DNA of 64,000 nucleotides, taken from positions 1-64,000 of the forward strand of contig NZ_SLXH01000020.1 in the NCBI RefSeq assembly GCF_004341365.1, written 5' to 3'. Positions 39,664 to 44,348 of the stretch are shown one piece after another. Position numbers and translations under genes: made by a program. This DNA comes from Simplicispira metamorpha (GTDB lineage Bacteria; Pseudomonadota; Gammaproteobacteria; Burkholderiales; Burkholderiaceae_C). Within the stretch, counting starts at the first letter, position 1, and each line of letters starts with the position of its first letter. The notes under the pieces were generated by a model, which saw only the letters and a list, made by a program, of their open reading frames with translations, was not told the origin of the DNA and did not search any database.

Positions 39664-39707
39664 GAAAAAGAAACAAGGGCTAGCGCCTTTTCAAGCTCTA
39701 GCCCTTG
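39664..39707 (-). terminator. Terminator or attenuator hairpin between rplT and pheS
   Basis: A perfect 10-bp stem CAAGGGCTAG / CTAGCCCTTG (39707-39698 with 39683-39674) followed by TTTCTTTTTC on the minus strand, ending 11 bp before the pheS start. A second perfect inverted repeat, GAACGCTAT / ATAGCGTTC, lies just upstream at about 39721-39745. No leader peptide with Phe codons was found. Confidence 0.6.
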
Positions 39708-40529: not shown

Positions 40530-41117
40530 TTATTCAGCAGGCGCTTCAGTGACCGTTTTGGCCGCAGAAGCTTTTTTGCGAGCAGGCGCAATCATCATGA
40601 TCATCTGCCGACCTTCCAGCCGAGGGAATTGCTCGACCAGAATGGTGTCGGCCAGATCGTCGCGAATGCGATTGAGCAATGCCAAACCCAGCTCTTGGTG
40701 CGTGATTTCACGGCCACGAAACCGCAGCGTGATCTTGCACTTGTCGCCATCCGCCAAAAAACGGCGGATGTTGCGCATTTTGATGTTGTAGTCGCCATCG
40801 TCCGTACCAGGACGAAACTTGACTTCCTTGATCTCAATGACCGTTTGCTTGGCTTTGGCTTCTGCAGCACGCTTTTGCTCAAGGTACTTGAACTTGCCAT
40901 AGTCCATGAGACGGCACACTGGAGGGTTGGCTGTGGCGGCAATTTCAACCAGATCCACATCCAACTCGCCTGCCATACGCAAGGCTTCCATCAAGCTGAC
41001 CACGCCGAGCGGCTCGTTCTCAGGGCCGGAAAGACGCACTTCAGGCGCCATGATTTCACGGTTCAGACGGTGTTTGCGCTCTTCGCGGTGGCGACGATCA
41101 CGAAATTCAGTAGCTAT
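40530..41117 (-). CDS. infC: Translation initiation factor IF-3
   Basis: 195 residues from the proposed start, ending in a Lys/Ala-rich tail. It has the N domain with [19 protein letters not shown], the linker [18 protein letters not shown], and the C domain [20 protein letters not shown]. Family members usually begin with (M/I)ATEFRDRR. Here the codon at that place is ATA (41117-41115), preceded by AAGGTGA at proper spacing. In-frame GTG (41126) and TTG (41132) overlap that ribosome site and are less likely. An AUU/AUA-class start is the known basis of IF-3 autoregulation, since IF-3 rejects such starts. Confidence 0.93.
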
Positions 41118-41175
41118 GGCTATCACCTTCAATCAAAATGCTACAAAAAGCGTAGCTGCTTTGGCACACTGCGCA
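41110..41175 (+). repeat. Dispersed repeat (diverged) at the thrS-infC junction
   Basis: Forward, diverged copy: CAAAATGCTACAAAAAGCG, TAGCTGCTTTGGC, ACACTGCGC. It fills the gap and reaches the infC ribosome site on the opposite strand. Confidence 0.5.
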
Positions 41176-41180
41176 AGCGC

Positions 41181-41203
41181 AAAAGCCTTTCATCAGGCTT
41201 TTT
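41181..41203 (-). terminator. Hairpin overlapping the thrS stop codon
   Basis: Arms AAAAGCCT / AGGCTTTT with a six- to seven-base loop containing the thrS stop. The T tract on the minus strand is only four long, so it is a weak terminator at best. Confidence 0.4.
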
Positions 41204-43112
41204 CAGCGACAGTCTTACTGATGAGTTCAATAAACGCATCAATAGACATCACACCAAGGTCTTTATTGCCCCGAGCTCGCACTGCGACTGCACCGGCTGC
41301 ACGCTCCTTGTCGCCAGCGACGAGGATGAAAGGCAGCTTCTGCATGGAATGCTCACGTATTTTATACGTAATCTTTTCGTTTCGCAGGTCCAGCGCTACG
41401 CGCAAAGGGTGCTGCGGCAGTGCTTTTTCGAGTTTTTCGGCAATTTCACGACAGTAATCGGCCTGGTTGTCGGTGATATTGAGCACCGCCACCTGCACCG
41501 GTGCCAGCCAGGTGGGCAGTGCACCAGCGTGTTCTTCGATCAAGATCCCGATAAAACGCTCCAGGCTACCGACAATGGCGCGGTGCAAAATTACCGGGCG
41601 CTTGCGCGATCCATCTTCGGCCACATATTCGGCATCCAGGCGCTCGCTCAGGTTGAAATCCACCTGTATGGTGCCGCACTGCCATTCGCGGCCAATCGCA
41701 TCTTTGAGCGTGTATTCGATCTTCGGGCCGTAAAAGGCACCATCCCCCTCGGAAATCACAAACTCGCAGCCCGAATGGCGCAGGCTGTCCATCAGCGCCT
41801 GTTCGGCCTTGTCCCAGAGTTCGTCCGAACCGATGCGCGCAGCCGGACGGGTCGAGACTTTGTACAGGATGTTGGTAAAGCCAAAATCTGCATACACCTG
41901 CTTAAGCACCTTGGTGAAGGTGTCGCATTCAGCCAGAATTTGGTTTTCGGTGCAAAAAATGTGCCCATCATCCTGCGTAAAGCCGCGCACACGCATGATG
42001 CCGTGTAAGCCACCCGAAGGCTCATTGCGGTGGCACTGGCCAAACTCACCGTAGCGCAGCGGCAGATCACGGTAGCTTTTGATGCCTTGCTTGAAGATCA
42101 GAATGTGACCAGGGCAGTTCATCGGTTTGAGCGCGTAATCGCGCTTTTCCGACTCGGTGATGAACATGTTGTCACGGTACTTGTCCCAGTGGCCGGTTTT
42201 TTCCCACAGGGTCTTTTCCAAAATCTGCGGGCCCTTGACCTCTTGGTAATGGTTGTCGCGGTACACACGGCGCATGTACTGCTCCACCTCCTGCCACAGC
42301 GTCCAACCTTTGGGGTGCCAGAACACCAGGCCGGGGGCATGTTCGTCCATGTGGAACAAATCCAGTTCGCGGCCCAGCTTGCGGTGGTCACGCTTTTCGG
42401 CTTCTTCCAGACGGGTCAGGTACTGCTGCAGCTCATCCTTACTGGCCCAGGCCGTGCCGTAAATGCGTTGCAGCATCTCATTGTGGTGGTCACCGCGCCA
42501 GTAGGCTCCTGCCACTTTCATCAGCTTGAAGTGCTTGAGCTTGCCGGTGCTGGGCACGTGGGGACCACGGCACAGGTCTTCAAACGCTCCTTCACGGTAC
42601 AAACTCACATCTTCATTGCTGGGGATGCTGGCAATCAGCTCGGCTTTGTAATGCTCGCCCAAGCCTTTGAAGTAGGCCACTGCTTCGTCACGCGGCAGTA
42701 CGCGACGCACCACAGGCTCGTCTTTGTTGGCCAGTTCGGCCATTTTCTTTTCGATAGCAGCCAAGTCTTCAGGGGTGAACGGGCGCTTATACGAAAAGTC
42801 GTAATAAAAACCGTTGTCGATCACCGGGCCGATGGTGACTTGCGCATCCGGGAACAACGCCTTCACCGCATACGCCAGCAAGTGGGCGGTGGAGTGGCGA
42901 ATCACGTCCAGGCCGTCAGCGTCCTTGGCAGTGACGATGGACAACGGGCTGTCCTGCGTGATTTGGTAGCTGGTATCGACCACTTTGTCGCCAATCTTGC
43001 CTGCCAGCGCCGCTTTGGCCAAACCGGCACCAATCGAGGCGGCCACCTCGGCCACTGTGACAGGGCCGGGGTATTCGCGCTGAGAGCCGTCGGGGAGCGT
43101 GATGTGAATCAT
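41193..43112 (-). CDS. thrS: Threonine--tRNA ligase
   Basis: 639 residues from the ATG at 43112 ([13 protein letters not shown]), which has AAGGA 6 nt upstream; a longer in-frame reading from 43229 runs through the attenuator and is not real. It has a TGS domain (1-60), the second editing domain with [11 protein letters not shown], a class II core with zinc ligands in MNCPGH and the downstream [11 protein letters not shown], and a C-terminal anticodon domain. Length equals other proteobacterial ThrRS. It heads the translation operon and is preceded by a leader with a Thr-rich peptide and a terminator. Confidence 0.97.
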
Positions 43113-43154
43113 GAAAATCCTTGTCAAATCCAAAAAATGAATGCGCGCTGTTCG

Positions 43155-43260
43155 AAAAAAAAGCGCGGAACAAGTCCGCGCTTTGGAGGGATAGGCAAAT
43201 CTCGTGCAGGCGCGAACCACCGGCCTCAAAGGCCGGAAAAAGTCTCCGATGTAGTTCGCG
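43155..43260 (-). promoter_or_regulatory. Ribosome-dependent transcription attenuator of thrS
   Basis: On the minus strand strand 1, CGCGAACTAC (43260-43251), pairs with strand 2, GTGGTTCGCG (43220-43211), enclosing an inner CCGGCC/GGCCGG stem. Strand 2 can instead pair with strand 3: GTTCGCGC (43217-43210) with GCGCGGAC (43181-43174). Strand 3 with strand 4 forms the terminator AAAGCGCGGA / TCCGCGCTTT followed by eight T (43184-43155). Thr codons of the leader peptide lie in strand 1 and the peptide stop lies just before strand 2. This is the classical trp/thr-type switch. Confidence 0.75.
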
Positions 43261-43267
43261 GTGTCAT
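43226..43267 (-). CDS. Threonine-rich leader peptide of thrS
   Basis: A 13-residue frame [13 protein letters not shown] with four Thr codons, ACA, ACT, ACA, ACT, which are the codons least expected in this high-G+C genome, where ACC/ACG dominate. AAAGG lies about 10 nt upstream of the ATG. A ribosome held at codons 5-6 covers strand 1 of the attenuator; one reaching the TGA covers strand 2. The peptide itself probably has no other function. Confidence 0.7.
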
Positions 43268-43385
43268 AACCAGATTGCCTTTCTCGCTCTTATGCAAATG
43301 AAAATTTGCTTGGATTTTACCCGAATACGCCAAAAGTCCGGTACAGACTGCACCGCGCTTTTGGCACTTCAGCGCACCACGCTAC

Positions 43386-44348
43386 TCAGTGGGTACACAA
43401 GTCCGGCTCGCCCTGCCCCCGTTGCCAGCAAGGACTTTGCCGATGGGGATCGGGGTACGGAATACCGTCGTCGTCAAGGCGCACTGGGTAGGTACTGAAT
43501 CCGCTGGCCCCGGCACGGTCGAAGGTCATGCGCAGCACCCAGGCTTGGCGCTGGCGGTCGTTGTCGGTTTCTTTCATGACGAAGTTGCCCACGCTGTAGA
43601 TGATGGGTTTGTCCTGGTACAACTCCACGTCTTGCGTGACATGGGGGTGCCCGCCAATGATGGCATCTGCTCCGGCATTGATCAGCAAGCGCGCCAGCTG
43701 CCGCTGCCTGCCGTTGGCTGTCGACTCGTTTTCCCAACCCCAGTGCATGAATACCACCACCAGATCGGCACGGTGCTGCTGGCGTGCGCGCTGGATATCG
43801 GCCACCACTTGCTCATCTTCGCTCCAGGCAATGCCGGGCGCATCGTGGTCGGCCTCAAAACTGCGCGGCATGAACTCGTTGTAACTCAGCAAAGCCACGC
43901 GCAAACCAGCCAGCTCCACCAGCCACGGGGCATGGGCTTCACTGAGATTGCGCCCACCTCCTGCCTGGGCCAGATTCGCGGCCTGCAACCACCCCAGCAT
44001 TTCGGCAAATGCCGCCCGGCCATAGTCGCCCGAGTGGTTGTTGGCCAACGTGACGCCATCGAGATGGCGGCGCAATACCGGCAACACTTGAGGGTGAGCG
44101 CGAAAGGTGTAGTTTTTGTCCACTGGCTCACCGGTGGTGGCAACCACACACTCCAGGTTGGCCACGCGCACATCGGCACTGGCAAAGAGCGGCGCCACGG
44201 CGGCCAGTGGATCACCGCCGCGGGCAATCAGGGCGCCTGCGGCATCGTCCAAGGTGGTGTCCCCCGCGAACACCAAAGAAAACGAGGGTGTATCCGCACT
44301 CCCCCAGCTGCACGCCAGGCCAAGCAGCAAAGCCAGCGCCCATTTCAT
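43386..44348 (-). CDS. CapA-family poly-gamma-glutamate-synthesis-type metallophosphatase
   Basis: 320 residues with a Sec signal peptide (about 1-25). The CapA/metallophosphatase-like core shows FAGDTTLDD near 35, NLECVV near 74, LANNHSGDYG near 110, VVFMHWGWEN near 203, IIGGHPHVTQ near 235 and YSVGNFV near 255. These match the CapA (PgsA) fold, but a full poly-glutamate synthesis operon is absent. The role is uncertain; many such proteins are periplasmic phosphoesterase-like enzymes. The start overlaps the stop of the upstream exported protein (ATGA), so the two are co-translated. The short C-terminal PCWQRGQGEPDLCTH tail has two Cys. Confidence 0.83.
   Translation of the reverse strand: MKWALALLLGLACSWGSADTPSFSLVFAGDTTLDDAAGALIARGGDPLAAVAPLFASADVRVANLECVVATTGEPVDKNYTFRAHPQVLPVLRRHLDGVTLANNHSGDYGRAAFAEMLGWLQAANLAQAGGGRNLSEAHAPWLVELAGLRVALLSYNEFMPRSFEADHDAPGIAWSEDEQVVADIQRARQQHRADLVVVFMHWGWENESTANGRQRQLARLLINAGADAIIGGHPHVTQDVELYQDKPIIYSVGNFVMKETDNDRQRQAWVLRMTFDRAGASGFSTYPVRLDDDGIPYPDPHRQSPCWQRGQGEPDLCTH

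Follow-up and report, generated by a model that had tools for sequence, protein, structure and literature searches.

The thrS locus and its leader region

The window, by which we mean the whole stretch of 64,000 nucleotides of Simplicispira metamorpha DNA that was analyzed, carries the threonine--tRNA ligase gene (thrS) on its minus strand, preceded by a short open reading frame (ORF), several potential stems and an intrinsic terminator. The elements of the leader were recognized in the sequence and are listed here, with thrS and the first gene downstream of it, in the direction of transcription:

43314..43319, minus strand: probable −10 element (TAAAAT) of the thrS leader promoter
43278..43285, minus strand: ribosome-binding-site-like sequence GAGAAAGG
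43254..43271, minus strand: 18-base stretch GGTTATGACACCGCGAAC, invariant in 31/31 aligned Comamonadaceae leaders, these loci having been chosen partly by the pattern ATGACACCGCG[AG]AC, which falls inside it
43226..43267, minus strand: thrS leader ORF, 13 codons and a TGA stop
43251..43260, minus strand: strand 1, CGCGAACTAC, containing Thr codons 5 and 6
43220..43236, minus strand: inner hairpin, CCGGCC (43236–43231) with GGCCGG (43225–43220), stop codon in the loop
43210..43220, minus strand: strand 2, GTGGTTCGCGC
43173..43184, minus strand: strand 3, the 5′ arm of the terminator, AAAGCGCGGACT
43155..43169, minus strand: strand 4, TCCGCGCTTT, with the T run of the intrinsic terminator (eight T, 43162–43155)
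41193..43112, minus strand: thrS, threonine--tRNA ligase (NCBIfam TIGR00418, 718.6 bits, cut-off 383.65)
40530..41132, minus strand: infC (IF-3) reading frame (TIGR00168), first gene downstream of thrS

The leader ORF runs on the minus strand from its ATG (43267–43265) to its TGA (43228–43226), with Thr codons ACA (43264–43262), ACT (43255–43253), ACA (43252–43250) and ACT (43243–43241); the 13-residue frame, ribosome site and four Thr codons that a preliminary description of this DNA had reported were all found. GAGAAAGG is separated from the ATG by 10 bases, which is a long spacing, and its GG (43279–43278) is invariant in the 31 aligned Comamonadaceae leaders. A consensus scan of the thrS leader region returned no σ70 site; elements resembling TAAAAT were seen by eye 5′ of the leaders of many relatives. 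The leader has the features of a short, putatively translatable ORF with a ribosome-site-like sequence, and it recurs among relatives (see below). The stretch at 43271–43254 also includes a possible GGT/ACC stem with the leader ATG in its loop, and its invariance apparently exceeds what pairing and codons explain.

Strand 1 (CGCGAACTAC, 43260–43251) can form 10 pairs with GTGGTTCGCG (43220–43211), while strand 2 (GGTTCGCGC, 43218–43210) can pair instead with strand 3 (GCGCGGACT, 43181–43173); the terminator stem, 43184–43175 with 43169–43160, is separated from the thrS ATG by 47 bases. All three pairings of the preliminary description (1:2, 2:3 and 3:4 with eight T) are therefore present in the window, although two of its details required correction: strand 1 contains just two of the four Thr codons, codons 5 and 6, and the inner hairpin carries the stop codon in its loop, before strand 2 rather than at it. 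The terminator at 43184–43155 is the sole terminator-like site in 43050–43500, where shuffled sequences are expected to yield 0.6, so the hairpin by itself is not rare. The fold of the window's leader has a z-score of −4.68, with 0/200 shuffles equally stable; in a looser duplex test over the whole region of the window alone, neither 2:3 (p = 0.129) nor 1:2 (p = 0.085) was significant.

Downstream, the true start of infC probably lies inside the frame at 40530..41132; an ATA start codon is suggested at 41117 (ATAGCTACTGAATTT), reminiscent of E. coli infC, which starts at AUU. pheS and pheT (TIGR00468, TIGR00472) follow infC, and the reading frames seen between infC and pheS are those that we take to be rpmI and rplT, giving the order thrS-infC-(rpmI)-rplT-pheS-pheT. 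thrS and the following genes are putatively co-transcribed. The gap between rplT and pheS holds a terminator-like hairpin at 39707–39665 on the minus strand (CAAGGGCTAG...CTAGCCCTTG followed by TTTCTTTTT), at which no Phe-rich ORF was seen by eye.

Distribution and codon content of the leader

Recurrence was assessed in 102 thrS upstream regions, comprising the window, 21 further loci of its genus (26 genomes searched, 22 usable thrS loci with the window) and 80 named loci, nearly all of them Burkholderiales by label; at least two entries are repeats from the same contigs (L012 = L040, L020 = L056). Leaders of the MTPRT type, recognized by ATGACACCGCG[AG]AC, a pattern whose definition already imposes Thr 2 and Thr 5, were present in 63/102 regions, namely 19 of the 22 same-genus loci (window counted) and 44 of the 80 named loci. 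A diverged leader built around R-T-T and followed by a terminator was found in 12 more of the named loci, mostly Alcaligenaceae, so that 56/80 have a Thr-coding leader and terminator of one type or the other. Across the order, leader and terminator were found in 52 of 107 sampled genomes and 19 of 32 families, the genomes being a non-random sample picked by hand across families from the better-scoring part of 295 matching genomes. These leader counts do not include variant cores in families f3, f9 and f22 (e.g., MRPPTT-, MTPLT-), two short or misplaced fetches (L195, G245) or L179 (f12).

Beyond the shared MTPRT the leaders vary, with MTPRTTTTTPTRV (Roseateles violae, L099) at one end and MTPRTSSEKLAGR (L019 and L020, of the window's own genus) at the other; MTPRTSSEKLAGR and MTPRTQEISPLAL are examples with Thr 2 and Thr 5 only. 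The preliminary description had held that close relatives lacking the Thr codons would tell against an attenuator, and this is partly the case: L019 and L020 are reduced to those two codons and the leader is missing from three same-genus loci (L011, L013, L015); the remaining 19 of the 22, L019 and L020 among them, retain it. No leader was found in 27 of the 102 thrS loci. On a tree of 99 ThrRS N-termini, the 27 leaderless rows require 10 changes (bootstrap 9–11), at least 5 leader changes being forced by well-supported branches, and the deepest branch has leaders to either side of it, the root being a midpoint set for drawing only. We read this distribution as that of what looks like an old element that has been lost several times. 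One MAG contig labeled Chitinophaga pinensis (Bacteroidota; L041) carries a thrS and leader of Comamonadaceae type; since it clusters with Malikia in the tree, it appears to be mislabeled.

The residues past the core played no part in the choice of loci. In 109 distinct leaders, Thr accounts for 196 of 870 such residues (22.5%), compared to 2.7% when the same DNA is read in its other two frames, an approximately eight-fold excess; Thr makes up 4.5% of codons in seven genes of the window. The residue immediately after the core is Thr in 66/109 leaders, and single leaders contain up to 8 Thr codons. The excess is uneven, with at most two Thr codons in 25/109 leaders and a Thr share past the core that runs from 0 (f3, f9, f23, f32) to 0.40 among families. 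ACT or ACA makes up 257/401 leader Thr codons, many of them within the conserved block, as against 12/141 in the seven window genes, where CGA is 4 of 193 Arg codons. In the core, Arg is encoded by CGA in 103/109 leaders and the next Thr by ACT in 100/109, figures that are not independent evidence since the loci were chosen mainly by CGA-AC. As judged by codon content, the leaders are enriched in codons for the amino acid that is handled by the thrS product.

Alternative pairings and the ribosome-stall model

Pairing was examined in an alignment (A1) of 31 Comamonadaceae leaders. Near-duplicates (L007, L012, L016, L023, L056) were dropped before A1, and four loci of unusual layout (L035, L052, L080, L084) were kept out by choice; L005, L022, L047, and L048 failed the terminator rule and are absent from the parsed set, L104 was excluded from A2, and the mis-parsed L083 was left out of the duplex, codon, stall and shuffle tests and entered A1 with ends set by hand. 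For the 1:2 stem, inner hairpin and terminator together, A1 contains 23 cells in which both sides of a pair have changed, against 7.7 in shuffles (0/500 as high); by a stricter count 7 pairs changed on both sides, a number reached by 25/500 shuffles. Both-side changes affect 5 of the 6 pairs of the inner hairpin, and 4 of the 9 lower 1:2 pairs are invariant and so carry little information. The terminator helix (3:4) is paired in 93.2% of cells and the 2:3 helix in 90.6%; in the latter 2 pairs changed on both sides (139/500 shuffles as high), with a covariation score reached by 12/500. The search for compensatory changes that had been proposed earlier is thus favorable for 1:2, inner hairpin and terminator taken together, while 2:3 is without clear covariation.

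Of 122–123 parsed leaders, 48 were used in a duplex test, 57 in a partner swap and 43 in a shuffled-leader control. The 2:3 pairing beats dinucleotide shuffles of the same leader (p < 0.05) in 16/48 (Fisher combination over 20 family medians, 1.5e-4) and the 1:2 pairing in 10/48 (0.008). When partners were swapped between families, the native combinations had only a slight advantage (median rank 0.31 for 2:3, 0.34 for 1:2); this test is weak, GCGCGG being shared by many families, and shuffled leaders were made the main control.

The behavior of the alternative stems was modeled by folding the RNA as transcribed up to the terminator loop in three states. In the first, a stalled ribosome hides all RNA as far as 13 bases beyond the first base of the core Thr codon; the second is free of ribosomes; in the third, the ribosome has reached the stop codon. 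Over 122 leaders, the predicted extent to which upstream RNA occupies strand 3 is 0.71 in the stalled state, 0.37 when free and 0.53 with the ribosome at the stop, and stalled exceeds free in 117/122; the window gives 0.76, 0.06, and 0.62, respectively. Since strand 3 is still held with the ribosome at the stop, termination in the model needs release of the ribosome and refolding of 1:2. The stalled-minus-free difference is 0.322 for natural leaders vs. −0.039 with shuffled leaders; it lies above the shuffled mean in 43/43 and at rank 0.1 or better in 26/43, and the accompanying Wilcoxon value of 2e-13 is optimistic because the leaders are related. For the window alone, the switch is larger than in all 30 of its own dinucleotide shuffles. 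The 1:2 and 2:3 pairings are mutually exclusive by sequence, and a stalled ribosome is predicted by the model to switch them.

Model R1, whose alignment includes the window, gives the leader 151.3 bits, with no other site in the genome scoring above 23.7. Aside from the window's own genome and one genome of the same family, matches of 24–28 bits were obtained in 3/183 genomes of the class, in a search whose filters lose weak matches; by eye, in the printed stretches, these three out-of-order matches look like ordinary terminators and were rejected as leaders. Of a further 29 genomes of the class, 27 were scanned upstream of thrS for a terminator preceded by a short ORF with three or more Thr codons, and one, L250, qualified; the rule would miss two-Thr leaders, and at least L236 and L246, perhaps also L262 and L264, were misplaced. 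Family f62 (same class, other order; L250, L265–L277) has a different thrS leader and terminator in 12/14 genomes, with an ATG-NNN-ACT-ACN leader of seven or eight residues (MSTTTAHR, MRTTVLQR, MDTTRAHR, and others) and, in 10/12, a terminator-like GC hairpin beginning 27–31 bases past the last sense codon. Here the switch test is null (−0.05 vs. −0.04 shuffled; 6/12 above the shuffled mean), which indicates that a positive outcome is not built into the test. The simple stall model fails for the f62 leaders; if regulatory, they would act by another arrangement.

Probable threonine-dependent attenuation and other readings

The reading best supported by the order-wide recurrence, the approximately eight-fold Thr enrichment and the 43/43 switch test is a ribosome-mediated attenuator that would set transcription of thrS according to the supply of charged tRNA-Thr; we put its probability at about 0.85. 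When Thr-tRNA is sufficient, the ribosome would complete the leader and leave, 1:2 and the inner hairpin would fold, and strand 3 would be free for the 3:4 terminator, ending transcription near 43155. When Thr-tRNA is scarce, the ribosome would wait on the Thr codons and cover strand 1, strand 2 would pair with strand 3, the terminator would fail, and thrS, perhaps with the following genes, would be transcribed. The rare CGA that immediately precedes the Thr codons probably delays the ribosome and aids its synchrony with the polymerase. The mechanism is classical; the less usual part is the regulated gene, thrS.

In seven leaders examined codon by codon, placing the stalled ribosome on almost any sense codon yields a near-identical predicted antiterminator (0.71–0.76 in the window), so threonine specificity would have to come from the codon content. 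This result, the leaders that keep Thr 2 and Thr 5 only, and the CGA core, for which the loci were mainly picked, would also fit a general translation-coupled attenuator that responds to overall ribosome speed or initiation rather than to threonine. We consider that improbable given the Thr excess past the core and immediately after it, the leaders with as many as 8 Thr codons, and the identity of the controlled gene as thrS.

A fixed role for the GC hairpin, mainly as a 5′ mRNA stabilizer or partial terminator with the leader ORF as a bystander, gains something from the leaderless loci: in 21/27 a terminator-like hairpin is present no more than 420 bases upstream of thrS, in several cases near a −10-like element. 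It is nevertheless very improbable in light of the conserved, Thr-enriched ORF, the compensating substitutions within the inner hairpin and the control with shuffled leaders. Leaderless loci such as L011, L013, L015, L053, L057, L058, L060, L062, L069, L076, and others keep a hairpin of the GCGCGG...CCGCGC-T type, which lies close downstream of a −10-like element. Probable repeated loss of the sensor with the hairpin left behind would offer natural experiments on the decay of attenuators.

Direct binding of ThrRS or tRNA-Thr to the invariant leader RNA, in the manner of the E. coli thrS operator or a T-box, is the least probable reading: it would account for 18 bases invariant in 31/31 leaders beyond what pairing alone explains, but the T-box model is not among the Rfam matches with E up to 10 in 43100–43400, and by eye the other families share just the in-frame CGA-ACT, as expected of a codon signal.

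Within the attenuator reading, a tentative extension, which we are inclined to doubt, is that the near-invariant GGTTATGACACCGCGAACT block serves, beyond its role as codons, as a built-in ribosome timer, through an obligatory slow CGA-ACT pair or the AUG-loop stem, with one or two Thr codons being enough, and that the system is an old Burkholderiales control of thrS replacing the E. coli type. Such a timer, if true, would account for the survival of leaders whose Thr codons are limited to positions 2 and 5.

The proposed attenuator resembles the thrL leader of the E. coli thrABC operon in its Thr codons, alternative stems and intrinsic terminator. The thrABC leader, whose sensed codons include Ile, controls biosynthesis genes, whereas the window leader precedes thrS and has no match to Thr_leader with E up to 10. 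The pheM leader of E. coli pheST is likewise a leader-peptide attenuator of an aminoacyl-tRNA synthetase operon, but it senses Phe and precedes pheST rather than thrS; in the present gene order pheST follows thrS-infC-rpmI-rplT. The E. coli thrS operator, with tRNA-like arms over the thrS ribosome site that are bound by ThrRS, and the thrS T-box of Firmicutes provide feedback on the same gene as the window leader, but there ThrRS or tRNA binds the RNA directly, without a leader peptide. Burkholderiales would thus have a mode of thrS control unlike either textbook system, with a leader conserved enough for direct testing.

No Rfam family reaches its gathering score over the thrS leader, so Rfam-based annotation misses it, and neither T-box nor Thr_leader is among the 5 Rfam matches with E up to 10 in 43100–43400. 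A match to ncS025 (Burkholderia sRNA 25; 26 bits, cut-off 46) was set aside as a chance hairpin match; in the sections of two reports available to us, NcS25 is located between BCAL3007 and a porin gene and not at thrS (PMC10117139, PMC5688073). A Leu_leader match in L094 is also below its cut-off (27.4 bits vs. 50, E = 0.076).

The preliminary description regarded a leader-peptide attenuator for thrS in a Betaproteobacterium as not standard. It is not the first time that a leader peptide has been proposed for thrS: Table 4 of an RNA-seq study of Streptomyces lividans TK24 lists thrL-thrS, with a Thr leader peptide proposed as an attenuator (PMC8079986). According to the same part of that study, S. 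lividans thrL is, like the window leader, a short Thr-codon ORF ahead of thrS (MKRVRPFLETTPGFVPAR), but it belongs to an actinobacterium, starts leaderless and is followed by a hairpin without a uridine-rich stretch, its termination being called unclear (PMC8079986). The window, by contrast, has a canonical terminator, a ribosome-site-like sequence and order-wide recurrence. Excerpts of PMC1262725 mention pheST attenuation and describe candidate attenuators ahead of trpS and leuS, both synthetase genes, in Streptomyces; PMC2965389 covers hisS leaders, and the single mention of threonyl-tRNA synthetase in its main text is as an RNA-binding E. coli protein that regulates itself. In the literature searched, as far as its text was accessible, no report of a thrS leader peptide was found for any Betaproteobacterium. 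A comparative survey published in 2010 by Lopatovskaya and colleagues may have listed thrS earlier, and we therefore make no claim that the thrS leader is unpublished. That survey concerns attenuation of amino acid and aminoacyl-tRNA operons, as cited in the accessible part of PMC4833913 (Lopatovskaya et al., 2010, Mol Biol 44:128).

Given the order thrS-infC-rpmI-rplT-pheST, Thr supply might also touch IF-3, ribosomal proteins and PheRS. Upstream, thrS or its leader stands in many families (e.g., L143, L169–L171, L185, L188, L196, L200, L202) directly 3′ of a tRNA gene, with anticodon GAC (Val, by eye) and an Rfam tRNA match in L185, arranged as if the two were co-transcribed.
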